From: Arcticibacter tournemirensis
Lineage (GTDB): Bacteria; Bacteroidota; Bacteroidia; Sphingobacteriales; Sphingobacteriaceae
NCBI RefSeq assembly: GCF_006716645.1
Contig: NZ_VFPL01000001.1
Span: forward strand, 868,001 to 932,000
Direction of reading: 5' to 3'
DNA length: 64,000 bases
The notes beneath the pieces are model-generated. The model searched no databases, was not told where the DNA came from, and saw only the letters and a list, made by a program, of their open reading frames with translations. Below, piece by piece: positions 3,286 through 60,758 of this stretch (the stretch's first letter is position 1; each line of letters begins with the position of its first letter). A program made the position numbers and the translations under genes.

Positions 3286-3366
3286 GTTAGTATCAAGTAT
3301 CAAGATGCAAGTACCAAGAGCCATTTTTATTGTCCTGATACTTGCATCTTGTGTCTTGATACTAAC
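3286..3366. repeat. Inverted heptad-repeat hairpin (TATCAAG family) after miaB
   Basis: Left arm 3286-3315 and right arm 3336-3366 are near-perfect reverse complements (about 26 of 30 positions) around a 20-nt loop. Both arms are built of degenerate 7-bp units of the TATCAAG type. The right arm starts 4 bp after the miaB stop, so the hairpin would form in RNA just after miaB and before the sigma-54 activator gene. The same heptad consensus recurs 43 kb away between gldN and uvrC. Confidence 0.75.
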
Positions 3367-3369
3367 CTG

Positions 3370-4791
3370 CTATTCAACAATTTTACCAATAAGCGTTGCA
3401 GTCGTACAGCGTTCAACGAACACATTCACGTACTGCCCCGGTTTATAATTTTTGTCCGCCGGAAATACCACCGTTGCATTCTGATCACTCCTGCCTGCAT
3501 AATCAAGTTCTGACTTTTTCGAGAAACCCTCGATAAGTACTTTTTGAACTTTCCCTACCTGCTGAAGCAGCCGTTCGTGTGAATGCTGCTGCTGCTTCCT
3601 GACAATTTCATTCAGCCTGCGCTTCTTTACATCGTCAGGAATATCATCAGTGAATCTTTTAGCTGCCAGTGTTCCGGGTCTTTCAGAGTACATGAACATG
3701 TATGCAAAATCATACTTTACATAATCCATCATGCTCAGTGTATCCTTGTGCTCTTCTTCCGTTTCTGTACAAAAGCCGGCAATAACATCAGTGGAAATTG
3801 CGCATTCGGGGATGATACGACGAATGCTGTTTATTCTTTCTGTATACCATTCCCGGTCGTACGTGCGGTTCATTATTTCAAGTACCCTCGAATTGCCCGA
3901 CTGGATGGGCAAGTGGATATACTTACATATATTTTCATGCTGTGCCATGGTATATAACACTTCATCGGTAATATCTTTCGGATGCGAAGTTGAAAAACGG
4001 ATCCTAAGATCAGGACTTACAAGAGCAACCTGTTCAAGAAGGCCGGCGAAGTTTACGCTTTCTGTTCCATCTTCAGAAGTCCATTTATACGAATCTACGT
4101 TCTGTCCTAGCAAAGTCACTTCCCTGTAACCTAGGTCGAATAACTCCTGAGCCTCTTTAACGATAGAATGTGCATCGCGGCTGCGTTCCCGTCCTCTGGT
4201 GAAGGGAACAACACAAAAGGAACACATATTGTCACATCCCCTCATGATAGAGATGAATGCAGTGATTCCATTTGAATTTAGCCTCACCGGATTAATATCG
4301 GCATAGGTTTCTTCGCGCGAAAGCAGTACGTTGACAGCACGGCTACCGTCGTCCACTTTATCGATCAGGTTAGGAAGATCACGATACGCATCAGGCCCAA
4401 CAACCACATCTACCAGCTTTTCTTCCTCGAGGAACTTAGATTTCAGTCGTTCTGCCATACAGCCAAGTACGCCAACCACCATTCCCGGGTTCCTGCTTTT
4501 TACAGCACCAAACTCACGCAGGCGGTTTCGCACCCTTTGTTCAGCATTTTCACGAATAGAACAGGTATTGATGAAAATAACATCGGCTTCTTTGTAATCC
4601 GCGGTGGTTTCAAACCCCATATCCGTCATAATCGAAGCAACGATCTCGCTGTCGGAGAAGTTCATCGCGCAGCCATAACTTTCGATATAAAGCTTCCGGC
4701 CGTTATTTTTAGTGGAGGTACTTTCGAGCATTAACGCTTCTCCCTGCCTCGCTTCATCATGTTCTTTTACACTGCTCTGCAAATTGTACAT
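3370..4791 (-). CDS. miaB: tRNA-2-methylthio-N6-dimethylallyladenosine synthase MiaB
   Basis: MiaB is a radical-SAM methylthiotransferase that adds the 2-methylthio group to i6A37 of tRNAs reading UNN codons, using two 4Fe-4S clusters. In this 473-residue protein the N-terminal MTTase domain carries the three cysteines of the auxiliary cluster ([29 protein letters not shown]). The radical SAM triad is [25 protein letters not shown]-like RNA-binding tail ([20 protein letters not shown]) closes the protein. The first roughly 30 residues are charged and poorly conserved, so Met21 is a possible alternative start. A -7 box at 4811-4818 places the transcript start just ahead of the annotated ATG. 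Confidence 0.95.
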
Positions 4792-4810
4792 ACTATTCTG
4801 CTTTGAAGTG

Positions 4811-4818
4811 CAAAAGTA
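4811..4818 (-). promoter_or_regulatory. Bacteroidota -7 box for miaB
   Basis: On the minus strand this reads TACTTTTG, a full match to the Bacteroidota -7 consensus TAnnTTTG. It lies 19 bp upstream of the miaB ATG, predicting a leader of about a dozen bases. No convincing -33 TTTG is seen at the usual distance. Confidence 0.5.
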
Positions 4819-4893
4819 CGAACATTTTGTATAAATGACAGGATGGCAGGCAGGTTTTATTGAAGAGTTCGCTGGGTGCGATGCTTTATGATA

Positions 4894-4916
4894 GCAGGGG
4901 AGGATAGCTCCCCTGC
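4894..4916 (-). terminator. Hairpin downstream of ilvE
   Basis: A perfect 9-bp stem (GCAGGGGAG with CTCCCCTGC) encloses a 5-nt loop. It starts about 20 bp after the ilvE stop on the minus strand. It lacks a real U-tract, so it may be a processing or partial terminator hairpin rather than a strong intrinsic terminator. Confidence 0.5.
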
Positions 4917-4936
4917 ATATTCTCTATGTTTGGACT

Positions 4937-6001
4937 TTATACGGTATAGTTCCAGCCAAATTCGTCCGCTACTTTTCCATAGCGGATTTCATTAAGCGCT
5001 TTGAGTGTTCTGTTCGAAAACTCGGCTTTAGTGGTGTCAGGCAGGTGATAAAGTTCACCTTCCGACCCAATACTGGCAATCGGCGCAATGGTAGCTGCTG
5101 TTCCAACTCCGAAAGCTTCCGTTAATTTTCCGTTTTTAAGCGCGTCAATCACTTCAGCAACCGAAACACGTCTTTCTTCAACGGGAATACCCCATTTTCT
5201 CGCAAGTGTCAGAACACTGTCGCGGGTGACACCTTTGAGAATGGTATCCCGCGTAGACGGAGTGATCAGGGTACCATCAATCATGAACATAACATTTGCG
5301 GCTCCAAGCTCCTCGACGAATGCATGGTCGCGGCCATCTGTCCAGATAAGCTGATCGAAGCCTTCTTTCATGGCTTCCTGAGCTGGAAGCAATGATCCGG
5401 CGTAATTTCCTGCTGCTTTAGCAAACCCGAATCCGCCTTCACTTGCACGTGAGTATTTGGTTTCAACCTTCACCTTTAAAGGCTTTGAAAAATATGCTCC
5501 TACCGGTCCTGTAAGAACCATGTACTTATATGTCTTAGAAGGCTGAACTCCCAGGTAAGGATCTGTAGAGAACATGAATGGCCTGATATACAGCGAATGA
5601 TGTGCTGCTGTCGGGATCCAGTCCCGGTCGAGATCCACCAGCGCAGCTATGCTCTGCACAAAGATATCTTCGGGAAGCTCCGGAGCGCATAAGCGTTCTG
5701 CCGATTTATTAAAACGTTCTGCATTCTTGTACGGACGGAAAACAGTTACTTTTCCATCATCGTGTTTATAAGCCTTCAGTCCTTCAAAAAAAGCTTGCCC
5801 ATAATGGAGCACTGAAATAGCAGGACTAAAAGAGATATCGCCATAAGGGACTATCTGGAAATTTTTCCATTCGCCGTCTTCGTAATCGGCAGTAAACATG
5901 TGGTCGGAAAATACTTTTCCGAAGGGTAAATGACTGAAATCTGTTTCTTCCAGCCTTGACTTGTTCGTTTTTGTGATCTTTATATCAAGTGTATCTGTCA
6001 C
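4937..6001 (-). CDS. ilvE: Branched-chain amino acid aminotransferase
   Basis: This 354-residue fold-type IV PLP enzyme interconverts leucine, isoleucine and valine with their 2-oxoacids using glutamate/2-oxoglutarate. The sequence shows the BCAT hallmarks. These are LHYGQAFFEGLKAYKHDDGK near residue 66, FRPYKNAERFNKSAERLCAP, the PLP lysine in FGFAKAAGNYAGSLLPAQEA, and the phosphate-binding loop ELGAANVMFMIDG with TPSTRDTILKGVTRDS. The length is usual for the eukaryote-like BCAT subgroup common in Bacteroidota. It stands alone, with no ilv or leu neighbours. A hairpin follows the stop. No clear -7 box matches the consensus exactly; TTACTTTG lies upstream. Confidence 0.95.
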   Translation of the reverse strand: MTDTLDIKITKTNKSRLEETDFSHLPFGKVFSDHMFTADYEDGEWKNFQIVPYGDISFSPAISVLHYGQAFFEGLKAYKHDDGKVTVFRPYKNAERFNKSAERLCAPELPEDIFVQSIAALVDLDRDWIPTAAHHSLYIRPFMFSTDPYLGVQPSKTYKYMVLTGPVGAYFSKPLKVKVETKYSRASEGGFGFAKAAGNYAGSLLPAQEAMKEGFDQLIWTDGRDHAFVEELGAANVMFMIDGTLITPSTRDTILKGVTRDSVLTLARKWGIPVEERRVSVAEVIDALKNGKLTEAFGVGTAATIAPIASIGSEGELYHLPDTTKAEFSNRTLKALNEIRYGKVADEFGWNYTV

Positions 6002-6180
6002 GGCATCAGAGGTTTTATAGAATACTTTTACAAAGTAACAGTTTTTTGAGGAGTAAAAGGGGAGAATTTGCGAATTCTTTGTTTCTCTATAATTGTTAGC
6101 TGCCGGGTTATTTCACTTGTTTCAATAAACTAACTGTTTTGACTTATGTTATTTTAGAACACCGGAAGTAAAGAAATTCT

Positions 6181-6188
6181 TATATTTG
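6181..6188 (+). promoter_or_regulatory. -7 box of the toxin-antitoxin pair
   Basis: TATATTTG matches TAnnTTTG exactly and ends only 4 bp before the ATG at 6193. Transcription would start at about that ATG. The message is therefore leaderless, or translation begins at the next methionine (Met17, 6241). Confidence 0.5.
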
Positions 6189-6192
6189 AATA

Positions 6193-6444
6193 ATGAGAGC
6201 AACAGATTTGAATGGACGATTAATTGATACTTATCTTGAAATGCTCAGGAACCTAAGCCAGGATCATAAGCTTGATCTAATTTCTAAGCTTTCGGAATCA
6301 TTAAAAACTCAGCGGAATGGCTCTAGTACGGAGAAAGCTTTAAATGATCTTTACGGGGCTTTTAAATCGGAGGAACAGGCAGATGAAATAATTGCTGCTT
6401 TACGGGATTCCAGACGTTTTACACGTGGCATTGAAGAATTGTGA
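6193..6444 (+). CDS. Antitoxin of a VapBC-like pair
   Basis: This 83-residue acidic/basic helical protein sits directly upstream of a PIN-domain toxin. Its stop overlaps the toxin start as GTGA. It contains YLEMLRNLSQDHKLDLISKL, a short linker, and a C-terminal segment (ADEIIAALRDSRRFTRGIEE) of the kind that wraps the toxin active site in Bacteroidota VapBC pairs. No AbrB or RHH motif is obvious, so the DNA-binding fold is unclear. The assignment rests on size, position and the C-terminal toxin-neutralising look. Met17 is an alternative start, given how close the -7 box is. Confidence 0.72.
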   Translation: MRATDLNGRLIDTYLEMLRNLSQDHKLDLISKLSESLKTQRNGSSTEKALNDLYGAFKSEEQADEIIAALRDSRRFTRGIEEL

Positions 6445-6845
6445 AAAAATATCTCCTTGATACTAATATTTGCATTTATTTCCTCAAAGGCCTTTATGAC
6501 ATCCATTCAAGGATTGAAAAAGAGGGGATAGGTAATTGTTATATTTCAGAAATTACAGTTGCAGAGCTGAAATATGGTGCTGAGAATAGCAAAACTGAAA
6601 GGAAAACAGAGAATAGAAGAGTCGTCGCTGAGTTTATTCAGATGTTTACTATATTGCCAATTTTTAATAGCCTTGATATTTATGCTTCTGAAAAAGCGCG
6701 GTTAAGGAAATCTGGGCTTCCTGTGGACGACTTTGATCTCTTAATTGGTGCAACTTCAATAGCAAACCGCATGGTAATGGTTACGAATAATTATAATCAT
6801 TTTGAAAGAATTAAAGATATAAAGCTGGAAGACTGGACTAAATAG
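6441..6845 (+). CDS. vapC: VapC-type PIN-domain ribonuclease toxin
   Basis: This 134-residue PIN-domain protein has the expected acidic residues: D7 in LLDTNI, E42 in VAELKYG and D99 in DDFDLLIG. They are followed by VTNNYNHF, where many family members have T-x-D/N. PIN toxins are Mg-dependent RNases that cut tRNA or rRNA and are neutralised by the upstream antitoxin. The start is GTG at 6441, overlapping the antitoxin stop by 4 bases (GTGA), which suggests translational coupling. It runs convergently towards the serB gene, with 75 bp between stops and no strong terminator seen there. Confidence 0.88.
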   Translation: MKKYLLDTNICIYFLKGLYDIHSRIEKEGIGNCYISEITVAELKYGAENSKTERKTENRRVVAEFIQMFTILPIFNSLDIYASEKARLRKSGLPVDDFDLLIGATSIANRMVMVTNNYNHFERIKDIKLEDWTK

Positions 6846-6920
6846 GAGAAAGGTCTTGCAGTACCTGACCACCAAGATACTATAAAACCTATACATCAAC
6901 CCGGAATCACAACCCGGCCC

Positions 6921-8213: not shown

Positions 8214-8230
8214 TTTATATTCGATAGGGA

Positions 8231-8238
8231 CAAAACTA
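8231..8238 (-). promoter_or_regulatory. -7 box for the serB fusion gene
   Basis: The minus strand reads TAGTTTTG, an exact TAnnTTTG match 18 bp upstream of the ATG at 8213. The expected leader is about a dozen bases. No -33 TTTG was found at standard spacing. Confidence 0.45.
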
Positions 8239-8322
8239 ATTTTGTTACCAACCCGTCAGCCCCTTTTTCTATTTACTTGCTATTTAATTTCAATACTATA
8301 ACTCACCGAAGCCATTGCTCAT

Positions 8323-8394
8323 CAACAATCGTCCCCTTTCAACTGTCCATTCTCAATTGTCCCCTGTCAATTGTCCATTTTCAATGATCCATTC
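8323..8394. repeat. Heptad array (TGTCCAT/TCTCAAT family) overlapping the SDR gene end
   Basis: About ten degenerate 7-bp units (for example TGTCCAT, TCTCAAT, TGTCCCC, TGTCAAT) run without spacers. The array covers the last dozen codons and the stop of the SDR gene at 8353, so it encodes that protein's C-terminal tail. Unlike the arrays near 3.3 and 47 kb, only one orientation is present. Confidence 0.7.
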
Positions 8395-9339
8395 TTTTAT
8401 GCTCTCCTTCACCGGTTTAAACCTGAAATCAGGAAAGAAGCGTAAGAATTTTTCTGAAGAGTAGCTCGTCTGTTTAGAAGCACTGTGTGCCGTATCCTTT
8501 GTCAGGCCGTATTTCTTACCCGTGAAAAATCCGGCGAGCCGGGTGAGCCGCCAGGCAATCGAGAGCAGCCAGGGTCTGGCCCTGATATTAGGCGTTTTAG
8601 TTCCAAGTGCGTGTGCTACTGTTTCAAATACCGTCTTGAAAGCGATGTTTTCTGAGTTAAGAATGAAGCGTTCAGAGCGAACGTCGGCTTCCATCAGCAA
8701 GATCATCGCCCTCGCAACATCTTCAACATCCGCCATTCCGCAAACACCATCTGTATAGAACTTTGATCCCTTCCGCGCCATGTCAAAAATTTGACCGCTT
8801 CCCTGGGTTCCCGCGTTTTTACCAATAATGATGGAGGGATTCACAATGACAGCGTTCAGTCCTTCTGCAATTCCCCGCCAAACTTCCATTTCACTTTCGT
8901 ATTTCGAAATAGAATAACCGTGCTGGCTTCCGTCAAATTCCCAAAAGCTCTTTTCATTTACAGCGTTTCCGTTCTTCGGATCTCCCAGCGCCGCCACAGA
9001 GCTAACATGCACCAGTTTCTCGACGCCGTGCTCCATGCACAGGTCAACAACATATGCGGTGCCTTCTTCATTTACTCTGATCATTTTCTTTTTGTCAGAT
9101 GGCTGAAATGAAATGGTGGCTGCACAATGGTACACGTGGCTGATCCCTGCAAATGCCTTTTCAAGAGAAAAATAGTCGAGCAGGTCGGAGTCGAACCACT
9201 CAATCTGAGGGATGGATTTTAAAGTATCGGGAATTACAGAGCTTTCGCGTTTCAATGCCCGAACCCTTTTCCCTTGTGCGTATAGTTGTCTTACTAATTC
9301 TGAACCTAAAAAACCTGTTGCGCCAGTAACCAATATCAT
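8353..9339 (-). CDS. Extended short-chain dehydrogenase/reductase (NAD-dependent epimerase/dehydratase family)
   Basis: This Rossmann-fold protein begins MILVTGATGFLGSELVRQLY, with the GxxGxxG cofactor motif. It has VYHCAATISF, then VSSVAALG, and the YSISKYESE active-site Tyr and Lys. It resembles dihydroflavonol-4-reductase/3-beta-HSD-like extended SDRs; the substrate is unknown. I chose the start at 9339 rather than the in-frame ATG at 9366 for two reasons. The -7 box at 9365-9372 would start transcription downstream of 9366, and the Rossmann strand begins at 9339. The last residues (IENGQLTGDN) are encoded by a heptad-repeat array, so the tail is probably not ancestral. Divergent from the arginase-fold gene. 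Confidence 0.85.
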   Translation of the reverse strand: MILVTGATGFLGSELVRQLYAQGKRVRALKRESSVIPDTLKSIPQIEWFDSDLLDYFSLEKAFAGISHVYHCAATISFQPSDKKKMIRVNEEGTAYVVDLCMEHGVEKLVHVSSVAALGDPKNGNAVNEKSFWEFDGSQHGYSISKYESEMEVWRGIAEGLNAVIVNPSIIIGKNAGTQGSGQIFDMARKGSKFYTDGVCGMADVEDVARAMILLMEADVRSERFILNSENIAFKTVFETVAHALGTKTPNIRARPWLLSIAWRLTRLAGFFTGKKYGLTKDTAHSASKQTSYSSEKFLRFFPDFRFKPVKESIKEWIIENGQLTGDN

Positions 9340-9364
9340 CCGGCAAAATTTTGAAAATGCTTTC

Positions 9365-10585: not shown

Positions 10586-10592
10586 AAGGGAA

Positions 10593-10620
10593 TCTTGAGT
10601 CTGAGTCTTGGGACTTGAGT
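10593..10620. repeat. Short heptad-like array (TCTTGAG family)
   Basis: Four degenerate units (TCTTGAG, TCTGAG, TCTTGGG, ACTTGAG) lie 8 bp after the stop of the arginase-fold gene. This is the weakest member of the heptad set: one unit is 6 bp. Confidence 0.4.
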
Positions 10621-10670
10621 AAAAGCGAAAAGTAGAGAGCCCAATCTAATCTTAAATCTTTTTTTAAATA

Positions 10671-10683
10671 TTAACACTGTTAA
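10671..10683 (+). promoter_or_regulatory. Predicted TetR operator 1
   Basis: The 13-bp palindrome TTAACACTGTTAA sits immediately upstream of the -7 box of the tetR gene. It shares the core TTAACnnTGTTAA with the second palindrome in front of the tolC-like gene. That is what one expects for an autoregulating TetR repressor. Confidence 0.6.
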
Positions 10684-10684
10684 G

Positions 10685-10692
10685 TATATTTG
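10685..10692 (+). promoter_or_regulatory. -7 box of the efflux operon
   Basis: TATATTTG matches TAnnTTTG and starts one base after operator 1. The predicted transcript start is near 10699, only a few bases before the ATG at 10704, so the leader is nearly absent. Confidence 0.5.
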
Positions 10693-10703
10693 CGGTGTTA
10701 TTT

Positions 10704-46846: not shown

Positions 46847-46850
46847 GTGT

Positions 46851-47048
46851 TTAGTATTTAGTATCAAGTATCAAGATTCAGGTATCAAGATTCAAGTATC
46901 AAGTATCAAGAAGCAATTGGGAGCAGGTCTTGCCTGCTAAGAGATAGATTAACTACAGTAAAAAAGCCGGGAGATTAGCATCTTTCCGGCTTTTTTGCTG
47001 TCATGCCAGGCATTTAGTCTTGATACTTGATACTAAATACTTGATACT
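46851..47048. repeat. Inverted heptad arrays flanking the gldN/uvrC terminator
   Basis: A left array of TATCAAG-type 7-bp units (46851-46910) and a right array in inverse orientation (47013-47048) bracket the terminator at 46960-46996. A 24-bp stretch (from AGTATTTAGTATC to CAAGA) is a perfect inverted match between the arms. The consensus is the same as at 3.3 kb. Confidence 0.78.
46960..46996. terminator. Bidirectional intrinsic terminator between gldN and uvrC
   Basis: The 11-bp stem AAAAAAGCCGG / CCGGCTTTTTT with a 15-nt loop gives a T-tract on both strands. It serves gldN (plus) and uvrC (minus), which converge here. Confidence 0.9.
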
Positions 47049-47057
47049 AATTGATAA

Positions 47058-48857: not shown

Positions 48858-48885
48858 GTTTGTGTTACTGGTCATTGGCTCCTGG

Positions 48886-48926
48886 CAATTAGCATTAGCT
48901 ATCAGCATTTAGCTATCAGCAGTCAG
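48886..48926. repeat. Heptad array (GCTATCA family) upstream of uvrC
   Basis: Six degenerate 7-bp units (CATTAGC, TATCAGC, ATTTAGC, TATCAGC, AGTCAGA and a partial one) lie between the uvrC start and the IS110 element. The array reads in frame with uvrC for some distance, which creates a false longer start. Confidence 0.65.
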
Positions 48927-49004
48927 ATTCTGTGTTAAGAACCAAATAATAAAATTAATTTATTTGTATTTTTGTATAACCAAGGCGGCCTTGAGCCAGC
49001 CTCT

Positions 49005-49035
49005 TTAGAGTAGCGGTCTGTGACTGCTACTCTAA
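49005..49035 (-). terminator. Hairpin just after the IS110 transposase
   Basis: A perfect 10-bp stem (TTAGAGTAGC / GCTACTCTAA) with an 11-nt loop lies 5 bp past the transposase stop. A second palindrome (CAAGGC-G-GCCTTG) is at 48981-48993. No long U-tract follows, so it may be part of the element's right end rather than a classical terminator. Confidence 0.5.
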
Positions 49036-49040
49036 CTATT

Positions 49041-50096
49041 TTAAGCTGTTTGTCGTCGTTCCGCCTCATTCTTTTCTATCTGTATTTTTTGAAGATAATC
49101 TTTGTCGTATTCTTTGCCACTACGGTATAAGGTGTACATTAAAGCCAGTATTTTTCTTTGTACCGCCACGGCAGCTTTCATCTTGATTCCTTGTTTCTCC
49201 ACTATCCTGAGATACACTGCTTTAAAGTGCACATCGTGCCTGATGGCTGTAAGCGCAGGGAAGTGCATCGCCTTTCTCAAGTGCCGGTTTCCTCTTTTAG
49301 ATATCTGCGCTTTCCCCCTTACGGAAGTTCCCGACTGCTTTTCTTTGACGTCCAGTCCTGCGTAGGCGGTAAGTTGCTTCTGATTGCGTATCAGATCAAA
49401 GCCATTGGTTTCTGCCAGTACGGTCACTGCCGTAAGGGCACCTACACCTGGAATAGAGGTGAGCTGTTTTACAGTTGCACTCACTTTTTGATTTTTGGCA
49501 AGCATCTCTCTGATTTCCTCCCAGATCTCTGCGGCCTGGTCCTTTAATAGTTTAATCCGTTTGTCAAGCCGGATAAGCGTGCCTTCATTGGGCTCTGCTT
49601 CAGCCAGTTCTGCATGTTTTTGGTTTCGCAACTGGTTCAGCTCCTGCTGCAACTGGTCCCTTTCACGGGTAAGTTGCCTGAGTGTTTTATACAGCGGTGC
49701 AGGCCGCTTCCAATCATCCAGCTTACGTTCAAGGCCAAACAGACAGATGGCTTCGCTGGCGCTTTTGTCTGTAATGGTCCTTACTTTCAGGGTCCTGAAA
49801 TAATTACTGATTTTATTGGGCAGGACAATACTCACTGCACATCCTTCCCCTGAAAGATAATAAGCCAAAGCTTCATGATACACTCCGGTGGATTCCATAA
49901 CATAACGTACTTCAACCTGATCTTCACACTGTTTACTGACCCAGGCACGCAATTCATTAAAACCCTTACTGTTATTAGTGAAGGTCTTATGTCCTACGAT
50001 CTTAGGGGTCCATTGCTGATCCATTTTTCCTAGTGATACAACTAATTCTTTTTGTGCTACATCAATGCCTGCTACCTGTTTTACTACGGTTTTCAT
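49041..50096 (-). CDS. IS110-family transposase (DEDD plus serine recombinase)
   Basis: This 351-residue recombinase has an N-terminal RuvC-like DEDD domain (VAGIDVAQKELVVSLG with D12; VMESTGVYHEALAYYL; RTITDKSASEAICLFG). A coiled-coil linker follows (about 130-190, LRQLTRERDQLQQELNQLRN). The C-terminal Tnp_20 domain carries LTSIPGVGALTAVTVLAETN and the catalytic-serine block KQSGTSVRGKAQISKRGNRH. IS110 enzymes use a structured RNA made from the element to pair donor and target DNA. The frame is intact. One oddity: in the third acidic motif the usual D-x-x-D appears as D-K-S-A, so the fourth carboxylate is not obvious. Otherwise the length and domain order are normal. Confidence 0.93.
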   Translation of the reverse strand: MKTVVKQVAGIDVAQKELVVSLGKMDQQWTPKIVGHKTFTNNSKGFNELRAWVSKQCEDQVEVRYVMESTGVYHEALAYYLSGEGCAVSIVLPNKISNYFRTLKVRTITDKSASEAICLFGLERKLDDWKRPAPLYKTLRQLTRERDQLQQELNQLRNQKHAELAEAEPNEGTLIRLDKRIKLLKDQAAEIWEEIREMLAKNQKVSATVKQLTSIPGVGALTAVTVLAETNGFDLIRNQKQLTAYAGLDVKEKQSGTSVRGKAQISKRGNRHLRKAMHFPALTAIRHDVHFKAVYLRIVEKQGIKMKAAVAVQRKILALMYTLYRSGKEYDKDYLQKIQIEKNEAERRQTA

Positions 50097-50139
50097 ACCA
50101 ATCTTTTCTTTTTGTTTTGAAAGTGAAGGTCTCTCTCCG

Positions 50140-50300
50140 TTTTTTCTCCTGTTGGATATTCTGGATATACCCCAGGGGTATTCCTTACATTCTGTTCAAA
50201 CTCTAAGAGAGTAAAAAAGGTGAGGCTGTAATCTGACTGCCTGCATACCTTTAAGGCTGCTTAGCCATCGGTGCGCTCTCACCCTTTTTCACTTTTTTTC
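50140..50300 (-). ncRNA. Candidate IS110 bridge RNA region
   Basis: Upstream of the transposase, on its strand, the non-coding end holds several nested hairpins. A perfect 15-bp palindrome ATACCCCAGGGGTAT lies at 50167-50181 and an ACTCT/AGAGT stem at 50200-50212. A long hairpin has arms at 50211-50224 and 50278-50292 (about 11 of 12 paired in the core) and encloses a roughly 55-nt internal region that could present target- and donor-pairing loops. In IS110 elements the bridge RNA is encoded at this position. Exact ends and loops are inferred. Confidence 0.5.
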
Positions 50301-50439
50301 CTTCAAATTTATTGGTATCTTATCTTTTTTATCTCCTTTTTTTTCTGCTGTAAACATAGGAGCCATCAGTACTTCAATTCTTTGTTTACGAGATCTTCTT
50401 TTCTTGCAACCATCAATATATAAATTCAAGTCGCACCCG
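50301..50439. other. A/T-rich stretch upstream of the IS110 element
   Basis: The region contains T-rich runs on the plus strand and no open frame or hairpin of note. The element's left end probably lies somewhere in it. Confidence 0.35.
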
Positions 50440-50486
50440 ATAATTCATAACACCCACTCATAACTCATAATTCATAACTCCATAAT
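50440..50486. repeat. Heptad array (ATTCATA/ACTCATA family) after the PBP1A gene
   Basis: Six to seven 7-bp units (ATTCATA, ACTCATA, ACTCATA, ATTCATA, ACTCCATA) lie within the first 85 bp downstream of the PBP1A stop (minus strand). A 10-bp direct repeat ACAACCTGCA follows between the array and the stop. Confidence 0.65.
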
Positions 50487-50522
50487 ACAACCTGCAACAC
50501 ACCACACACAACCTGCATCCCA

Positions 50523-52772
50523 TTACGGGTTCGGTTCTGTTGCGGGTACTCCAGCCGAGTCGGTAACAGATTTCGGAACATAGGCATCACAGTTGAGTGT
50601 TATGCTCATTCCTCCTTTCGGAGTAGGGAAGTCGCCTTTGGTGTATTTAAGTGTGGGATCCGCATATACCTTTTTCATGTACAAGGCAAATACGGGCAGC
50701 GCTGAATTAGCTCCCTCGCCCTGGCTTGTAGACAGGAAGTGAATAGCGCGGTCCTCAGCTCCGGTCCAGACGCCGGTAACCAACTGTGGCGTTATACCTA
50801 TAAACCAGCCGTCGGAATTACGCTGAGTGGTGCCGGTTTTACCTCCGATAGGGTTCGTCAGCCGGTATTTATACTGAATGCGGCGCCCTGTTCCCCGCTG
50901 GACCACTCCCTTGAGCATGTCCGTCATCGCATAGGCTGTTTGTTCATTCAGCGCAACGGTTACTTTCGGCTTCCGTTCGTAGATCACTGTGCCATTCTTA
51001 TCCTCGATCCGAAGAAGATAGATCGGTTCATTTAAAACCCCATGGTTTACAAATGTTGAATAAGCTCCCGTCATATCCAATAAAGAAGCGTCAAAAGTCC
51101 CAAGACAGATTGCAGGATAAGGATCGAGATTTGGTGAATTGATCCCCATCTTTTTAAGCAAGGTAACCACAGCGGTGGGTCCTACCTGCTTCATCATATA
51201 GGCTGTTACATAGTTCTGTGAATAAGCTAAAGCGGTTTTAAGCGTGATATAACCGGGTATAGGCTTATAGGCACGGGGAGTCCATCCATCAATTGTAACC
51301 GGTTCATTGGGGGCCTGGTAGCAAGGGGAGAATCCCTGGTTCTCTATAGCGACGGCATAAGTAAATGGTTTTGCCGTTGATCCTACCTGGCGGGTTCCCA
51401 TCTTTACCTGATCATATTTGAAATGTTCGAAATTTATTCCTCCAACCCAGGCTCTCACATAGCCAACAGATGGACTGTCTCCTGCCTCTATGGATACCAA
51501 CGCATTTCTTAGCATCAATTTATAGTATTTGATGGAGTCCATAGGAGTCATCACTGTATCTATATTTCCTTTCCAACTGAAAACATTCATTTTGACGGGC
51601 GTATTAAATGATTTCAGTATGTCGCCTTCGGTAAGACCTTCGTCTTTGAGGTATTTATAGCGGTCAGAACGTTTCATTCCCTGTTCAAGCAATATCTCTG
51701 CTTCTCCTTTGAACGGATTCCGTCCCTTCCATACCTTGTTAAACTGAGTCTGCAGCGTACGTATATATTCACTCTGCGCTTCTTCGGCATACTTCTGCAT
51801 ATGCGAGTTGATGGTTGTGTAGATCTTTAAGCCGTCCCGGTCAAGGTCGTATGGTGTATCGTCGGCCTTTTTAATGTTTTGTTCTTCAAAAATCTTCTGA
51901 ATATCTTTCTTAAGCACAGCCCTGAAATACGCTGCGTATCCTTCATTATGATTAATCGGTCTGAACTTCAGAACCAACGGTGTTTGTTTTAGTTCTTCAG
52001 CCTCGGGATCGGACAAGTAACCTGCTTTACGCATATTTTCGAGAACGGTATTCCTTCTGGCCAGCGATCTTTCCGGATTCCGCACCGGAGAGAAGAAGGA
52101 AGGTCCTTTCAACATTCCAACAAGAACCGCTGCCTGCTCCGGCTTTAGCTTGTCGGGCGTGGTGTTAAAATACGTTTGCGAAGCTGCCTTTATACCAAAG
52201 CTGTTATAAGAACCGAAGTCGACCGTGTTAAGGTACATCGTTATTATTTCTTCTTTGGTATAGTTTCTTTCGAGCTTTATGGCTATGATCCATTCCTGGA
52301 GTTTTTGAATAAAACGTTTGAAGACATTGTGGGCGCGGCCTTCTTCCTGAAACAGATTTAAAGCAAGCTGCTGTGTAATAGTACTTGCTCCCTGTTTTTT
52401 CCCAATGAGATTATAGAAAATGATTGTAAAGGTTCGTTTAAAGTCAATGCCTGAGTGACTGTAATACCTGACGTCTTCCGTCGCAATCAAAGCGTTGATT
52501 ACATTAGGGGATATCTGGTCGTAACGAACGTTTGAACGGTTTTGCACAAAGTAGGAGCCCAGTACCACGCCGTCGTCAGAAATGACGTCCGACGCAAGGT
52601 TGCTTTTAGGATTTTCGAGATCGCGGAAAGATGGTAGCGTTCCGAACAGGCCAAGTCCGACACTAAATATCAGAATGATTCCAAAGGCTATGCAGCCAAG
52701 AACGATCTTCCAGAATGTGACTGTATAACGGCGTGTTTCTTCTTTAGTTAAATGAGCTTTTCTTTGCTGCAT
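50523..52772 (-). CDS. mrcA: Class A penicillin-binding protein (PBP1A-like transglycosylase/transpeptidase)
   Basis: This 749-residue bifunctional enzyme polymerises and cross-links peptidoglycan. It has an N-terminal membrane anchor (FWKIVLGCIAFGIILIFSVG). The GT51 glycosyltransferase has catalytic Glu in LIATEDVRYYSHSGIDFKRT, plus KKQGASTITQQLALNLF and KLERNYTKEEIITMYLNTVD. The transpeptidase has SxxK in GSTAKPFTYAVA, the SxN-type YSQNYVTAY and KTG in GGKTGTTQRNSDGWF. The C-terminus is short and Pro/Thr-rich. It starts 1 bp after the stop of the PorW/SprE-like gene, so the two are co-transcribed. Confidence 0.94.
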   Translation of the reverse strand: MQQRKAHLTKEETRRYTVTFWKIVLGCIAFGIILIFSVGLGLFGTLPSFRDLENPKSNLASDVISDDGVVLGSYFVQNRSNVRYDQISPNVINALIATEDVRYYSHSGIDFKRTFTIIFYNLIGKKQGASTITQQLALNLFQEEGRAHNVFKRFIQKLQEWIIAIKLERNYTKEEIITMYLNTVDFGSYNSFGIKAASQTYFNTTPDKLKPEQAAVLVGMLKGPSFFSPVRNPERSLARRNTVLENMRKAGYLSDPEAEELKQTPLVLKFRPINHNEGYAAYFRAVLKKDIQKIFEEQNIKKADDTPYDLDRDGLKIYTTINSHMQKYAEEAQSEYIRTLQTQFNKVWKGRNPFKGEAEILLEQGMKRSDRYKYLKDEGLTEGDILKSFNTPVKMNVFSWKGNIDTVMTPMDSIKYYKLMLRNALVSIEAGDSPSVGYVRAWVGGINFEHFKYDQVKMGTRQVGSTAKPFTYAVAIENQGFSPCYQAPNEPVTIDGWTPRAYKPIPGYITLKTALAYSQNYVTAYMMKQVGPTAVVTLLKKMGINSPNLDPYPAICLGTFDASLLDMTGAYSTFVNHGVLNEPIYLLRIEDKNGTVIYERKPKVTVALNEQTAYAMTDMLKGVVQRGTGRRIQYKYRLTNPIGGKTGTTQRNSDGWFIGITPQLVTGVWTGAEDRAIHFLSTSQGEGANSALPVFALYMKKVYADPTLKYTKGDFPTPKGGMSITLNCDAYVPKSVTDSAGVPATEPNP

Positions 52773-52773
52773 G

Positions 52774-55533: not shown

Positions 55534-55555
55534 ACTAAAGTAATTTGGTTCTAAA

Positions 55556-55563: not shown

Positions 55564-55699
55564 CGATTTTCACAGATACGAAGCTGTATAACTCTTGTAC
55601 GCAGAACATAGGAAAGGTTTACAGAAAATAGAATATTCATTATCGGAGTTCAGTCATCGGGGGCCTTAAGACAGTCGTTTCGTCGTAAGGGGTGGAGGG

Positions 55700-55735: not shown

Positions 55736-55757
55736 AAGCTGTATAATCCCGGAGGAG

Positions 55758-56009: not shown

Positions 56010-56395
56010 GTATACTTCGCTTTACTTTTTTATTCGCTGTTTTTGTAACCTGTATCGGTTTACTTTTTGTGCTTTTAGATTCTGGCTTAGGTATTTCACT
56101 TTTAATCCCTAAATTCTGGGTCATTTTCGGCGGGCTCGCAGTCCTTACCTTAATGGCCTATTATTTCTCATTGACAGGCATCCGAAAAGGCGGCGAATTT
56201 TCTGTATATGCCATCCTTGGAGCCATCATTGTAAAGCTTTTGATTAGCATGCTTTTTGCTCTTGTTTACCTGCTCAGAATAAATGTTGATAAAGTGATTT
56301 TCGTCATTGATTTTATTTCAATTTATTTCTTGTTTAGTGGCTTTGAAATATGGGTGTTGTTAACTAACTTGCGCGACCAAAATAAATCGGAATAA
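56006..56395 (+). CDS. Small membrane protein of the atp operon (AtpI-like)
   Basis: This 129-residue protein has four predicted helices (FTFLFAVFVTCIGLLFVLLD; FWVIFGGLAVLTLMAYYFSL; YAILGAIIVKLLISMLFALV; VIFVIDFISIYFLFSGFEIW). It begins with TTG at 56006, overlapping the atpZ stop by 4 bases, and ends 11 bp before atpB. Position and topology match the subunit-I-type protein of ATP synthase operons, thought to aid c-ring assembly. Sequence similarity to AtpI is weak, so the function is inferred from context. Confidence 0.65.
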   Translation: MSILRFTFLFAVFVTCIGLLFVLLDSGLGISLLIPKFWVIFGGLAVLTLMAYYFSLTGIRKGGEFSVYAILGAIIVKLLISMLFALVYLLRINVDKVIFVIDFISIYFLFSGFEIWVLLTNLRDQNKSE

Positions 56396-56406
56396 TCACG
56401 TATTAA

Positions 56407-57537
56407 ATGGATTTTAGCGATATTTTTAAACTAAGAAAAACAGGGATAAGTGCAGTTGCCGCTCTTTTTTTATTTCTACTTAACGTTACCGACATAAAAG
56501 CCCAGCATCAAGACAGCGATACAACCTTTAGTTCTGCTGTTGAAAGTGATGCTCAGATTCCTGCTACCGAACATAAAGAAGGAGGGCATGCGGAGGGTAA
56601 ATTTGATCCAACTTCAGCTATCATGGATCACATCGCAGATTCACATTACTGGCATCTTTGGGGAGAGACTTCTTTACCACTTCCGGTGATATTGATTACT
56701 GACAAAGGGGCGGAGGTTTTCTCATCTGCAAAATTCCATCATGGTGAGGATGCTTATGAAGGCAAGTACTACACATACAAGCTTATAGAAGACAAGATCT
56801 TTGCCGTTAATGCTTCGGGAGAGATAGACAAAGCTGCGTCTTCGAATGTATATGATTTTTCAATCACAAAAAATATCGCGGCGATATGGGTTGCCGTTAT
56901 CCTGCTTGTACTGATATTCACGTCTGTATCCTCTGCTTATAAAAAGCGTGAAGGGAAGGCGCCGAAAGGATTTCAGTCGCTTATTGAGCCGATCATACTT
57001 TTTGTACGCGACGATATAGCAATTCCAAACATCGGTTACAAGTACACTAAATACATGCCGTTGTTATTGACGCTGTTCTTTTTCATCTGGATAAACAACA
57101 TGCTTGGCCTGCTGCCTATCTTCCCGGGAGGAGCCAACGTTACGGGGAATATATTTATGACCTTCGTGCTGGCTTTTATAGTGCTTCTTGTCGTTAATTT
57201 TAGTGGTAACAAGTATTACTGGAAACATATCTTATTACCTGATGTACCCTGGTGGCTTTATCCAATCATGATCCCAGTTGAAATAATCGGTGTAATATCA
57301 AAGCCGTTTGCATTAATGATTCGTTTGTATGCGAATATTTCTGCGGGGCATATTATTGTACTTAGCTTAATTTCATTGATCTTCATCTTCAAGTCGCTCG
57401 CCATAGCGCCTGTCTCAGTCGCATTTGTACTGTTTATGGACGTTCTGGAGCTTCTGGTTGCATTTCTGCAGGCATTTATATTTACGATGCTTACAGCCCT
57501 GTTTATAGGGACTGCAGTTGATGAACATCATCATTAA
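56407..57537 (+). CDS. atpB: ATP synthase F0 subunit a
   Basis: This 376-residue subunit a has the essential Arg in LMIRLYANISAGHIIVLSLI and the C-terminal helix pair (FVLFMDVLELLVAFLQAFIF). The N-terminus is extended: a signal-like segment (AVAALFLFLLNVTDIKAQ) and roughly 110 extra polar, histidine-rich residues (EHKEGGHAEGKFDPT) come before the first conserved helix. That is long compared with the usual 240-270 residues but seen in Bacteroidota. With the c-ring it forms the proton path. It ends 41 bp before atpE. Confidence 0.95.
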   Translation: MDFSDIFKLRKTGISAVAALFLFLLNVTDIKAQHQDSDTTFSSAVESDAQIPATEHKEGGHAEGKFDPTSAIMDHIADSHYWHLWGETSLPLPVILITDKGAEVFSSAKFHHGEDAYEGKYYTYKLIEDKIFAVNASGEIDKAASSNVYDFSITKNIAAIWVAVILLVLIFTSVSSAYKKREGKAPKGFQSLIEPIILFVRDDIAIPNIGYKYTKYMPLLLTLFFFIWINNMLGLLPIFPGGANVTGNIFMTFVLAFIVLLVVNFSGNKYYWKHILLPDVPWWLYPIMIPVEIIGVISKPFALMIRLYANISAGHIIVLSLISLIFIFKSLAIAPVSVAFVLFMDVLELLVAFLQAFIFTMLTALFIGTAVDEHHH

Positions 57538-57566
57538 TAATAAGGAAACATTTTTAAACTATATAA

Positions 57567-57794
<228 letters not shown>

Positions 57795-57817
57795 GAAAGG
57801 GACTTCGGTCTGAAAAG

Positions 57818-57860
57818 AGGCCGGAGAATTAACGATTGGTTATTTTTCCGGCCTTTATTT
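57818..57860 (+). terminator. Terminator-like hairpin between atpE and atpF
   Basis: The 8-bp stem AGGCCGGA / TCCGGCCT with a 21-nt loop is followed by TTATTT. It lies 23 bp after the atpE stop and 31 bp before atpF. Partial termination or RNA stabilisation here would raise the level of the c-subunit message relative to downstream genes. Confidence 0.6.
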
Positions 57861-57890
57861 ATGAAGAAAAGACAATAAAAGATAGAAAAA

Positions 57891-58400
57891 ATGGGAGAAT
57901 TATTTGAGGGTATACTTAACCACCATTTAGGTTTTGTAGTTTGGTCGACTCTGGCATTCCTTCTGCTTTTGGTTATTTTAAGAAAATTCGCGTGGAAGCC
58001 TATCCTGAGTTCTATTAATGAACGCGAGCGTTCCATTGAAAATGCTCTTGCATCAGCTGAAAAGGCCAAGGAGGAAATGAGCAGGTTAACCAGCCAGAAC
58101 GAAACTTTGCTGAAAGAGGCTCGTGCGGAACGTGACCATATTTTGAAGGAAGCAAAGGAGCTCAAAGATAAAATCATTGCTGAAGCCAGAACGAGTGCTC
58201 AAGCTGAAGGCACTAAGATGATTGAAAAGGCAAAACAGGAAATAGACAGTCAGAAAACGGCCGCCCTGAACGAAGTAAAAGGTCAGGTAGCTGCGTTATC
58301 GCTTGAGATCGCTGAGAAGGTATTACGCCGCCAGTTTGAAGATCATGCTAAACAGGAAGCACTGGTTACTGATTTGTTAAAAGAAGTAAAATTGAGTTAA
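57891..58400 (+). CDS. atpF: ATP synthase F0 subunit b
   Basis: This 169-residue subunit has one N-terminal helix (LGFVVWSTLAFLLLLVILRK) followed by a long amphipathic coiled coil (ENALASAEKAKEEMSRLTSQ; KAKQEIDSQKTAALNEVKGQ) and a delta-contacting end. It is the peripheral stalk that holds F1 against rotation. A heptad array starts at its stop codon and fills the gap to atpH. Confidence 0.95.
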   Translation: MGELFEGILNHHLGFVVWSTLAFLLLLVILRKFAWKPILSSINERERSIENALASAEKAKEEMSRLTSQNETLLKEARAERDHILKEAKELKDKIIAEARTSAQAEGTKMIEKAKQEIDSQKTAALNEVKGQVAALSLEIAEKVLRRQFEDHAKQEALVTDLLKEVKLS

Positions 58401-58470
58401 GAGGTAAGAGTTAAGAGTTTAGAGTTTGCCAAATCAAAAACCCGCAACTCTGAACCTTGAACCTTGAACT
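58398..58470. repeat. Heptad arrays (GAGTTTA / CCTTGAA) between atpF and atpH
   Basis: The left array (GAGGTAA, GAGTTAA, GAGTTTA, GAGTTTG) and right array (CTCTGAA, CCTTGAA, CCTTGAA) are separated by about 20 bp. The arms are partly complementary (GTTTAGAGTT with AACTCTGAAC), so a weak hairpin is possible in the operon message. Confidence 0.68.
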
Positions 58471-58481
58471 AATAGAAGAAG

Positions 58482-59030
58482 ATGTCTGAAATACAAGTAG
58501 CATCAAGATACGCTAAGTCATTAATAGATCTGGCTGAAGAGCAAAAGGCGCTTGAGCCTATTAAAGCTGATATCGATTCGTTTCTCCGTGTTGTGAAAAT
58601 GAACTCGCAATTAGCTGCTATTCTCAGAAACCCTATTATCAGTCCTGATAAAAAACTTTCTATTCTGAATGAGCTGTTTGGAAAAACATTTCATAAAGTG
58701 GTTTTATCATTTTTCAGGATAGTAGTGAACAAAGGTCGTTCTGAAGTTCTTTACGCAACCGCAAGGGAGTTTGTAAATGAGTATAACCTGCGTAAAGGGA
58801 TCATTAAGGCAACGGTAACTTCTGCCGCTCCTCTAAGTGAGTCGAACAGAAACCAAATCGTGCAGGCGGTTACAGAGGCTACCAAGTGTCAGGTAATTCT
58901 TGATGCGAAGGTGGATAAAGACCTGATAGGAGGCTTTGTACTCACGGTTGGCGACAAGCAGTATGATGCTACTATCCTGAACAGCTTGAACAAACTAAGG
59001 AAAGATTTCTCGCAGAAAGTGTCTGTTTAA
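58482..59030 (+). CDS. atpH: ATP synthase F1 subunit delta
   Basis: This 182-residue protein has the N-terminal helical bundle (IQVASRYAKSLIDLAEEQKA, then NSQLAAILRNPIISPDKKLS) and the C-terminal signature DKDLIGGFVLTVGDKQYDAT. Delta connects the peripheral stalk to the alpha subunits. It lies between two heptad-containing gaps, 81 bp after atpF and 65 bp before atpA. Confidence 0.94.
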   Translation: MSEIQVASRYAKSLIDLAEEQKALEPIKADIDSFLRVVKMNSQLAAILRNPIISPDKKLSILNELFGKTFHKVVLSFFRIVVNKGRSEVLYATAREFVNEYNLRKGIIKATVTSAAPLSESNRNQIVQAVTEATKCQVILDAKVDKDLIGGFVLTVGDKQYDATILNSLNKLRKDFSQKVSV

Positions 59031-59095
59031 TCTACCCAATGAGATAATTAGAACAACAATTTTAAAGCATAAAATAAAAAATTAAGATAAAAAAT

Positions 59096-60670
59096 ATGGT
59101 AGAGGTAAGACCAGATGAAGTTTCGGCGATATTGCGTGAGCAGTTGTCGGGCTTTAAATCAGAGGCCGAACTTGAAGAAGTAGGTACCGTGTTACAGGTG
59201 GGCGATGGTATTGCCCGGGTATACGGCCTCACCAAAGTTCAATCAGGCGAGCTGGTTGAATTTGATAACGGACTACAAGGCGTGGTATTGAACCTTGAAG
59301 AGGATAACGTGGGTGTGGTTTTATTAGGCCCTGCTGATGAGGTTAAAGAAGGTGACACCATCAAGCGTACTAAGAGAATTGCTTCTATCCGGGTAGGAGA
59401 AGGTATGCTTGGCCGTGTTGTAAATACACTGGGACAGCCAATTGATGGTAAAGGTCCGATCACCGGCGAAACATATGAAATGCCGATCGAACGTAAAGCT
59501 CCGGGAGTAATTTATCGCCAGCCGGTAAATGAGCCTCTGCAGACTGGTATTAAAGCAATTGACGCAATGATACCGATCGGCCGCGGACAGCGCGAGCTGG
59601 TTATCGGCGATCGTCAGACTGGCAAGACTGCTGTTTGTATTGATACCATTATTAACCAGAAAGAGTTTCATGCTGCAGGAAAGCCTGTTTATTGTATTTA
59701 TGTTGCTATAGGGCAGAAAAACTCTACCGTAGCCAACATTGTACGTACGCTTGAAGAAAACGGTGCTATGCCGTACTCTATAATAGTAGCTGCTTCTGCT
59801 GCAGATCCTGCTCCGATGCAGTTCTTTGCTCCGTTTGCCGGCGCTGCTATCGGCGAGTTCTTCCGCGATACCGGACGACCTGCACTTATCATTTATGATG
59901 ATCTGTCAAAGCAGGCAGTTGCATACCGCGAAGTTTCCTTGTTACTTCGTCGTCCTCCGGGCCGTGAAGCTTATCCGGGTGACGTGTTCTATCTGCACAG
60001 CCGCTTGCTCGAAAGAGCAGCAAGAGTCACAAGTGCCGACAATATCGCCCGGCAGATGAATGACCTTCCGGATTCTATTAAGCACCTTGTAAAAGGTGGT
60101 GGTTCGCTTACAGCGCTTCCTATTATTGAAACTCAGGCAGGCGACGTATCGGCTTATATCCCGACCAACGTGATCTCTATTACCGATGGTCAGATATTTC
60201 TTGAATCTAACCTGTTTAACGCAGGGGTTCGCCCGGCGATTAACGTAGGTATTTCGGTATCCCGCGTAGGGGGAAATGCGCAGATCAAGTCGATGAAGAA
60301 AGTAGCAGGTACCTTAAAGCTCGATCAGGCTCAGTACCGCGAGTTGGAGGCCTTCTCTAAATTTGGATCCGACCTTGATGCGGCTACCAAATCGGTACTC
60401 GATAAGGGTGCGAGAAATGTGGAGATCCTAAAGCAGGGACAATTCTCACCAGTAACTGTAGAAAAGCAGGTAGCTATAATATATGCTGGTACGAAAGGCC
60501 TGTTACGTCAGGTACCTGTGAATAAAGTGAAACAGTTTGAAGCAGAATATACCCAGCAGCTGGAAGTACGTCATCCTGAAGTATTACAGGCACTAAAAGC
60601 TGGAAAATTTGATGACAGCATTACCGGCGTACTTGAAACAGTAGCTAAGGAATTGGCAGCAAATTATTAA
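59096..60670 (+). CDS. atpA: ATP synthase F1 subunit alpha
   Basis: This 524-residue subunit has a beta-barrel N-terminal domain ([20 protein letters not shown]). The P-loop is [18 protein letters not shown] near residue 170. The alpha-subunit signature [20 protein letters not shown] and a helical C-terminal domain follow. Alpha subunits hold the non-catalytic nucleotide sites of F1. The matching beta gene is not in this operon. Confidence 0.97.
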
Positions 60671-60680
60671 TGTAGTTATT

Positions 60681-60758
60681 AGATAGGAGAGGTGAGATAA
60701 GAGATAGGAGAACCAGTAACGGGTCTCAGGTCTCAGATCTCAGATCTCATATCTCATC
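60681..60758. repeat. Inverted heptad arrays (GATAAGA / GATCTCA) between atpA and atpG
   Basis: The left array (GATAGGA, GAGGTGA, GATAAGA, GATAGGA) and right array (GGTCTCA, GGTCTCA, GATCTCA, GATCTCA, TATCTCA) fill nearly the whole 96-bp gap. A 13-base segment pairs with one mismatch (TGAGATAAGAGAT against the complement of ATCTCATATCTCA). Confidence 0.75.

Follow-up and report, generated by a model that had tools for sequence, protein, structure and literature searches.

Tandem arrays of seven-nucleotide units have been noted in bacteria for years, with no accepted role. In PMC4692102, heptanucleotide repeats are described with GGGAATC units in Xanthomonas and GGGGA(C/T)T units in Nostoc; they form inverted pairs, their 5' neighboring open reading frame (ORF) lies 28 nt away on average, and they are rare between divergent ORFs. 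PMC4679880 reports TAACTGA repeats in Beggiatoaceae, cyanobacteria and some Bacteroidetes, where forward units precede start codons and one set in reverse orientation immediately follows a stop codon, together with MacGregor's suggestion that they are bound by a cold-shock/S1-type RNA-binding protein. Here we analyzed arrays with a 7-nt period in a 64,000-nt stretch of the Arcticibacter tournemirensis genome (contig NZ_VFPL01000001.1, positions 868,001 to 932,000, hereafter the window), for which a preliminary description made from the sequence had listed eight degenerate arrays between genes. Another class of dispersed repeat, the repetitive extragenic palindromic (REP) sequences and the bacterial interspersed mosaic elements (BIME), consists of hairpins located at the 3' ends of genes and in gaps within operons, and rarely between divergent genes.

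The comparison with cyanobacterial heptanucleotide repeats, already drawn in the preliminary description, was apt, as the heptamers of Xanthomonas, Nostoc and Beggiatoaceae are similarly placed according to PMC4692102 and PMC4679880. Like long simple sequence repeats (LSSR) and short tandemly repeated repetitive (STRR) sequences, the arrays studied here are intergenic and composed of tandem 7-nt units longer than chance allows (six of the eight in the window). They differ from the Xanthomonas and Nostoc repeats, which PMC4692102 presents as one G-run unit type per genome and discusses as G-quadruplexes, in comprising many AT-rich families without G-runs, in lying no more than 10 nt from a stop codon, and in forming hairpins at orthologous gaps across genera. 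With the TAACTGA repeats of PMC4679880 they share the occurrence of heptamer arrays in Bacteroidetes that are absent from the corresponding gap of close relatives; TAACTGA itself is a single unit with equal G and C, mostly direct and upstream of start codons, present in 2–6 copies in the Orange Guaymas genome, and a binding-site role was proposed for it. The polarity seen in both sources fits the polarity found here, in the case of the reverse TAACTGA set behind a stop codon by its ACT/AGT core only. As dispersed hairpins of gene 3' ends and operon gaps that are rare in divergent gaps, our arrays also resemble REP and BIME, from which they are set apart by the lack of a fixed consensus, by their tandem 7-nt build and by the absence of a Y1 transposase from the genome. 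Heptamer repeats are therefore already known, and what appears to be new is their anchoring to stop codons and their retention at particular sites, of which the papers listed by our literature searches gave no report. These two features and a fixed polarity also go beyond the preliminary description, and with the stop anchor and the sites kept in the atp operon, what had been a curiosity among repeats becomes a gene-end element that can be tested.

The sample of the A. tournemirensis genome (G000, 5.66 Mb in two contigs) consisted of the window and 20 stretches of 20 kb, giving 464 kb (8%) with 238 gaps and 55 kb of intergenic DNA; genes were called with a simple in-house caller and no annotation was used. 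In the 55 kb of intergenic DNA, exact runs of at least 10 at a given lag numbered 18 for period 7 and 16, 14 and 10 for periods 14, 21 and 28, against 0–2 for every other period from 2 to 30, and 20 shuffles averaged 0.2 runs of period 7. The density of period-7 runs was 32.5 per 100 kb of gaps compared with 0.5 per 100 kb of coding DNA, and a tolerant score detected a period-7 array in 23 of 238 gaps versus 2 of 337 coding regions (shuffles, 0.6). An excess over both shuffled sequence and coding DNA was the test on which the preliminary description had staked its case, and in this 8% of the genome the claim survives. Its further point, a period of 7 shared by unrelated units, proved specific, with 0–2 runs for each of periods 5, 6 and 8–13; the units that we found in the sample include TATCAAG, GAGTTAA, GAGATAG, GTTGYRG, TTATGAG, GTTGAAA and GTCAGCA. 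In 40 stretches of other genomes, 9 of them chosen to hold the atp locus, period-7 arrays were found in 4 of 61 congener gaps, 13 of 156 gaps from the family and 12 of 120 from the class (period 6: 2, 1 and 2; period 8: 0, 3 and 5). An E. coli K-12 control gave no array at periods 5–11 in the 26 gaps of 50 kb.

The position of the arrays relative to genes followed a sharp rule. In same-direction gaps, the distance from the upstream stop codon to the start of the array is at most 10 nt for 30 of 36 arrays (11.1 under uniform placement) and 0 for ten. Where at least 100 nt of free space was available, 13 of 16 arrays begin within 10 nt behind the stop (0.6 expected), and none of the 16 ends within 10 nt of the next start; hairpins without arrays gave 8 of 73 near the upstream stop, with 3.3 expected. 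This anchoring was also seen without the atp regions (21 of 25, with 5.1 expected; again 13 of 16 in the free-space set) and in the A. tournemirensis genome alone (12 of 14, with 4.8 expected; 4 of 5). The mean period-7 identity of 38 anchored arrays rises from about 9 nt before the gene end and reaches a plateau behind the stop. By orientation, arrays occupied 13 of the 80 gaps between convergent genes, 36 of the 390 between genes of the same direction and 3 of the 104 between divergent genes (p = 0.0025 for convergent versus divergent). A count by eye placed an array no more than 10 nt from a stop, on one side or both, in 8 of the 13 convergent gaps. The idea that arrays neutrally fill whatever space the coding limits leave free was rejected, because those of long gaps sit at the stop.

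The common anatomy is that several 7-nt units stand directly behind the stop codon on the sense strand, usually with one fixed G per unit, and that a complementary inverted array mostly comes next, so that the mRNA or the DNA could fold into a stem. A hairpin was present in 42 of 52 array gaps; some of the folded stems are nearly perfect, others are made of 4–6 bp stems with 2-nt internal loops every 7 nt. Polarity is fixed, the G-rich arm coming first: G exceeded C in the left arm, or C exceeded G in the right arm, in 56 of 73 segments versus 17 (p = 5e-6), and hairpins without arrays were closer to G/C balance (111 versus 86, with 41 equal). In the 8 nt behind the 3' arm, the proportions of T and A were 0.27 and 0.41 for 33 array hairpins and 0.37 and 0.32 for 143 other hairpins. 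The array hairpins share with intrinsic terminators a hairpin behind a stop codon, but they have no U-run on average, occur inside operons and, at 46847–47057, have arms that flank a separate terminator. The finding of A rather than U behind the 3' arm indicates that they are not typical intrinsic terminators, and this explanation was rejected. At two loci (L232 and L242) the arms were seen by eye to come from different heptamer families (e.g., TATCAAG versus CTCATAA/CCCACAA), with the G-to-C polarity still kept.

Retention at orthologous places was assessed in the atp operon, using 170 loci that were the best matches to AtpA and hence mostly belong to Sphingobacteriaceae, and counting as arrays those with a score of at least 9; 160 of 169 atpA-atpG and 146 of 166 atpF-atpH sequences were unique, and the same species may be present twice. 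The AtpA of the window shares 93–96% identity with that of five congeners (same genus), 90–91% with two Parapedobacter proteins and 87–90% with those of Pedobacter, Mucilaginibacter and Sphingobacterium; we accordingly place the genome among the Sphingobacteriaceae, close to Parapedobacter. Between atpA and atpG (Bacteroidota loci, up to 169), 31 gaps shorter than 30 nt had neither hairpin nor array, and among 129 gaps of at least 60 nt a hairpin was found in 124 and period 7 in 97 (period 6 in 2, period 8 in 10). Between atpF and atpH, none of 50 gaps below 30 nt had either feature, and of 97 gaps of at least 60 nt, 79 had a hairpin and 76 had period 7. The corresponding figures for atpH-atpA gaps of at least 60 nt were 15 and 26 of 64, and across the three boundaries none of 107 gaps below 30 nt carried a hairpin or an array. 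Gaps at atpF-atpH and atpA-atpG are mostly either short and bare or at least 60 nt long with a hairpin, and related species may differ strongly in the unit.

Arrays were found in atp loci of Pedobacter, Mucilaginibacter, Sphingobacterium and Hymenobacter, among others, and the units that occupy a given site differ. Even among congeners the letters changed: at atpA-atpG the nearest relative by AtpA (G002) carries a GTTGTGG array where A. tournemirensis has GAGATAG (identity 0.47, shuffles 0.43), G004 carries a related GAGAT array (0.69, shuffles 0.52), G001 and G005 have a hairpin without period 7, and the hairpin of G003 has a period-7 score that is borderline at 9.8. At this boundary, therefore, the hairpin is the retained part, and not the letters or the heptamer. 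Some Mucilaginibacter (L208, L220, L222, L225 and L230) carry at atpA-atpG a different palindrome with GCACAT words such as ATTTGCACATC and GATGTGCA, at the place where relatives have heptamer hairpins. In the atpF-atpH gap of G002 (L102), the heptamer hairpin appears by eye as two similar tandem copies, 156 nt long.

We read the arrays as stem-loop elements of gene 3' ends that have a REP-like role and are rebuilt through exchange among dispersed heptamer families, and we give this reading a probability of roughly 0.45. The anchoring to stop codons, the avoidance of divergent gaps and the retention of hairpins at chosen operon boundaries speak for a function at mRNA 3' ends, and a REP-like role is favored by the lack of a U-run on average and by operons that continue beyond the hairpin. 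In such a role the hairpin would act on the RNA, shielding the upstream message from 3'-to-5' decay, and it could insulate that message from the downstream cistron. The period of 7 would be the trace of a building process, tandem duplication with template switching or conversion between arrays of the same family, rather than a sequence code, and exchange among many arrays of one family could lead to replacement at a fixed place with fixed polarity. ATP synthase contains its subunits as b2, delta1, alpha3 and gamma1. Of the three atp boundaries studied, hairpins are common at the two that mark a drop in subunit number (b2 to delta1, alpha3 to gamma1) and less common at the one that marks a rise (delta1 to alpha3), which may reflect subunit stoichiometry, although three boundaries are too few for proof. 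Should mRNA stability or subunit ratios prove to be set by these hairpins, Bacteroidota would have in them a widespread post-transcriptional device. The arrays themselves are real, beyond chance, akin to a known kind of repeat and governed by a sharp anatomical rule; it is their function that we infer.

Under an unlikely alternative, the arrays arise neutrally through slippage of the replicating polymerase, for which 7 nt is the favored step, and persist where nothing else is needed. This proposal reportedly goes back to Mrazek et al. in 2007, to whom citing papers attribute it. Heptamers are, according to papers citing that work, the commonest long repeat in many genomes, and the scarcity of arrays in coding DNA and in divergent gaps fits simple purging. 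Slippage would also accommodate arrays that come and go between congeners, and appearance and disappearance in homologous gaps, which the preliminary description had put forward as a check, was true for both gaps compared. The gap between the MiaB/RimO-type gene and the sigma54 activator measures 103 nt in A. tournemirensis, 77 nt with one arm left in G004 and 14–16 nt in three other congeners, and the gldN-uvrC gap measures 211 nt, 192 nt without an array (partly N) in G004 and 24–48 nt in three other congeners; the congener lengths are approximate, the gap limits being alignment ends, G002 was unmatched for two gaps, and one gap of G004 contains a run of N. Slippage, however, takes no account of stop codons, whereas 13 of the 16 free-space arrays start no more than 10 nt from one (0.6 expected). 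Among the 46 indels of 34 disjoint orthologous pairs at the species level, only 4 were multiples of 7 and 32 were of 1–2 nt, as counted from a strict alignment (a loose alignment was over-gapped and uninformative); whole-unit indels are rare and no ongoing slippage is visible over species distances. Nor does a built-in preference for 7 show in the coding DNA of this genome, where units of 5, 7 and 8 nt do not differ in their rarity (2 of 336 genes for each length; 5, 4 and 5 genes for lengths of 6, 9 and 15), and the fixed polarity (56 versus 17) would be unexpected. A common generating mechanism, as suggested in the preliminary description, agrees with a 7-base period shared across unrelated units, but alone it leaves the stop anchoring unexplained. 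Period 7 is nearly exclusive in this genome and slippage has left little trace, which calls for a specific generating process.

Dispersed mobile elements resembling miniature inverted-repeat transposable elements (MITE) or REP, inserting behind stop codons, are in our view a distinctly improbable source. Two dispersed unit families are present: AGTATCAAGAATCAAG with at most one mismatch had 71 matches in the genome and GTTGYRGGTTGYRG had 79 exact matches (overlaps counted in both), and the same patterns read backwards had none. Close plus/minus pairs within about 320 bp numbered 9 in the AGTATCAAGAATCAAG family and 8 in the GTTGYRGGTTGYRG family, all of them, by eye, in the order plus then minus. 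As AGTATCAAGAATCAAG is a unit common to the arrays at 3267 and 46847, the preliminary view that each array has its own consensus holds locally but not across the genome. Mobile elements would account for such families and for the nearest congener having another family in the corresponding gap, and the uniform polarity fits descent from a self-complementary element. Against this source, unit number, arm length and flanks vary, no fixed ends were seen by eye in 11 loci, and very different units occupy the same gap in different species. High-copy extragenic palindromes are present, yet no single REP consensus extends over the whole stem, units and arm lengths differing between loci. The REP-associated tyrosine transposase (RAYT/TnpA-REP, Y1 type, PF01797) had no match in the genome in a search confined to Y1, with a control that detected it in 5 of 14 genomes, and RAYT-driven REPs were rejected on this ground.

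A further proposal, at least as hard to credit, is that the arrays are bound by a protein, e.g., a cold-shock/S1-type RNA-binding protein, each subunit of which would occupy one 7-nt unit. Of the first arms of 168 distinct atp arrays, 88% have a phase in which 80% or more of the units carry G, compared with 12% for C, 87% for A and 81% for T, and AG occurred in a fixed phase in 55 of 84 arms versus 28 (sd 4) upon phase permutation. Binding of CspB to heptamer repeats, one protein per unit, is cited in PMC4679880. A sequence-specific binder would keep the unit constant, however, and the remaining bases differ widely among loci and species; G001 and G005 have a hairpin without heptamers at the same place. 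Multi-frame stop signals (7 being 1 modulo 3, a stop triplet in the unit would be met in all frames behind the gene's stop) match the triplets within TTAGTAT, TTGAGAT and GAGTTAA and the start of arrays at the stop codon, but this highly improbable idea was rejected since stop triplets were not enriched over phase-permuted units (2.97 versus 3.32, sd 0.20, in 38 anchored arrays; 3.62 versus 3.64 in 168 atp arrays).

Returning to stem-loops at gene 3' ends, we compared substitutions per site, which were lower in the arms than in the rest of the gap (0.118 versus 0.148 and 0.093 versus 0.163). At atpA-atpG, 55 single changes led to G-U and 28 to A-C (p = 0.004), an excess that is expected if RNA pairing matters. 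A number of observations weigh against a function of this kind. The single changes at atpF-atpH gave 22 G-U and 19 A-C, the static G-U/A-C tally over four sets was mixed (50/33; 17/37 at atpF-atpH, opposite in direction, p = 0.009; 38/44; 20/10), and double changes restoring a Watson-Crick pair were few (5 and 4). With counts so mixed, G-U over A-C was set aside as proof of RNA function, and the comparison lends weak support to RNA pairing. The atpH-atpA boundary is not free of arrays, period 7 being found in 22 of 35 gaps of at least 110 nt, which weakens the stoichiometry argument. Three congeners lack the arrays at both of the homologous gaps compared above, and any function there is therefore not essential. 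An inverted partner is missing from 10 of the 52 array gaps, as it is from the window arrays at 8326 and 50440. Without the atp stretches the period-7 excess in other genomes was smaller (2 of 34 congener, 7 of 113 family and 11 of 106 class gaps; period 8: 0, 2 and 5; period 10: 2, 2 and 1), so that the excess is overwhelming in the A. tournemirensis genome and present in family and class, but not shown for random congener gaps. Finally, a hairpin function leaves the choice of 7 over 6 or 8 unexplained.

More broadly, it is conceivable, although we consider it doubtful, that the heptamer arrays of Bacteroidota, Xanthomonas, cyanobacteria and Beggiatoaceae form one convergent class of stop-anchored 3'-end elements with fixed polarity (the AG- or G-bearing strand leading away from the stop). 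A cellular machine would then read or make the 7-nt step rather than the sequence, and the hairpin module would be kept at chosen gene boundaries while whole sets of its letters are swapped between dispersed families. A Nostoc-type heptamer query gave no match against plasmids, possibly owing to the low-complexity filter, and the cross-phylum part of this idea consequently rests on PMC4692102 and PMC4679880.

Within the window, the best lag-7 score of each gap was compared with 500 dinucleotide shuffles and the hairpin score with 100. Six of the eight arrays first listed lie far beyond shuffles (0/500 each, in gaps 3267–3369, 8214–8400, 46847–47057, 50440–50522, 58401–58481 and 60671–60766), and the two others are weak (10586–10703 and 48862–49040). 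Several are paired inverted arrays, as had been noted, with hairpin scores of 24 at 3267, 25 at 46847 and 17 at 60671, reached by none of the shuffles, and 10 at 58401, reached by 2; no hairpin beyond shuffles was found at gaps 8214 and 50440, where 88 and 100 of 100 shuffles reached the score. The features and their neighbors are collected in the following table.

Table. Heptamer arrays and associated features of the window; fractions give the shuffles that reach the score.
Feature	Position	Strand	Evidence	Neighboring genes and elements
TATCAAG-family inverted heptamer array (hairpin)	3270..3366	-	lag-7 11.8, 0/500; hairpin 24, 0/100; RNA fold -45.4 kcal/mol, sense strand	MiaB/RimO-type radical SAM gene (stop side, 3370); sigma54-activator gene (start side, 3266); both by Pfam
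Direct heptamer array TCAATTG/TGTCCAT, inverted partner not found	8326..8395	-	Tandem Repeats Finder (TRF); lag-7 10.4, 0/500; hairpin 88/100	
Weak candidate array TCTTGAG, not clearly beyond chance	10593..10620		lag-7 6.0, 25/500	
5' arm, G-type, GTATCAA units	46847..46916	+	lag-7 30.0	begins immediately behind gldN stop codon (GldN by Pfam)
Ordinary bidirectional terminator-like hairpin AAAAAAGCCGG...CCGGCTTTTTT	46960..46996		sequence and fold	between both heptamer arms
3' arm, CTTGATA units	47019..47048	-	lag-7 14.2	9 nt from opposite-strand uvrC stop codon (UvrC by Pfam)
Period-14 repeat AGCATTTAGCTATC	48886..48926		TRF 2.3 copies, 94% matches; lag-7 6.2, 15/500	
Heptamer array ACTCATA/ATTCATA, G-type on sense strand of gene, partner array not found	50440..50512	-	lag-7 14.8, 0/500	transglycosylase/transpeptidase gene ending at 50523 (Pfam); IS110 element adjoins
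Inverted heptamer hairpin, first GAGTTAA unit contains atpF stop codon	58394..58469	+	lag-7 18.0, 0/500; hairpin 10, 2/100	atpF-atpH gap
Inverted heptamer hairpin GAGATAG / ATCTCAG	60673..60757	+	lag-7 27.4, 0/500; hairpin 17, 0/100	atpA-atpG gap

In the convergent gldN/uvrC gap the two arms start 0 and 9 nt from the stop of their own gene, with the normal terminator in between. The atpA-atpG hairpin folds with -32.7 kcal/mol into 4–6 bp stems separated by 2-nt internal loops, and atpB, E, F, H, A and G of the window were identified by Pfam. At 10593–10620 Tandem Repeats Finder lists nothing. Over the window, Rfam gave no family at the gathering score and ARAGORN neither tRNA nor tmRNA.

The placement between genes that had been described holds in general, with two departures: array 8326–8395 enters the 3' end of an ORF, and the repeat at 48886–48926 overlaps the probably over-long uvrC start. 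The former spans the stop codon of an epimerase-type ORF (8353–9339), overlapping it by about 40 nt, so that the last 13 or so codons are heptamer sequence. The start of the uvrC ORF (48861–48908) is probably over-long, as four congeners align only from residue 14–17, and the extra codons are repeat DNA.

The repeat at 48886–48926 is interrupted by an insertion sequence of the IS110 family, and similarity to a second IS110 copy starts at 48911. Two IS110-family copies were found in the genome, one at 48911–50362 (transposase 49041–50096, minus strand) and one at L264; both start at heptamer sequence resembling AGCTATCAGC / AGCTTTCAGC, with a period-7 array no more than about 150 nt away. This arrangement resembles that of IS110 elements with REP palindromes as their targets. 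Within the atp operon, a terminator-like hairpin (GGCCGGA...TCCGGCC) with a T-rich tail lies between atpE and atpF at 57814–57858.

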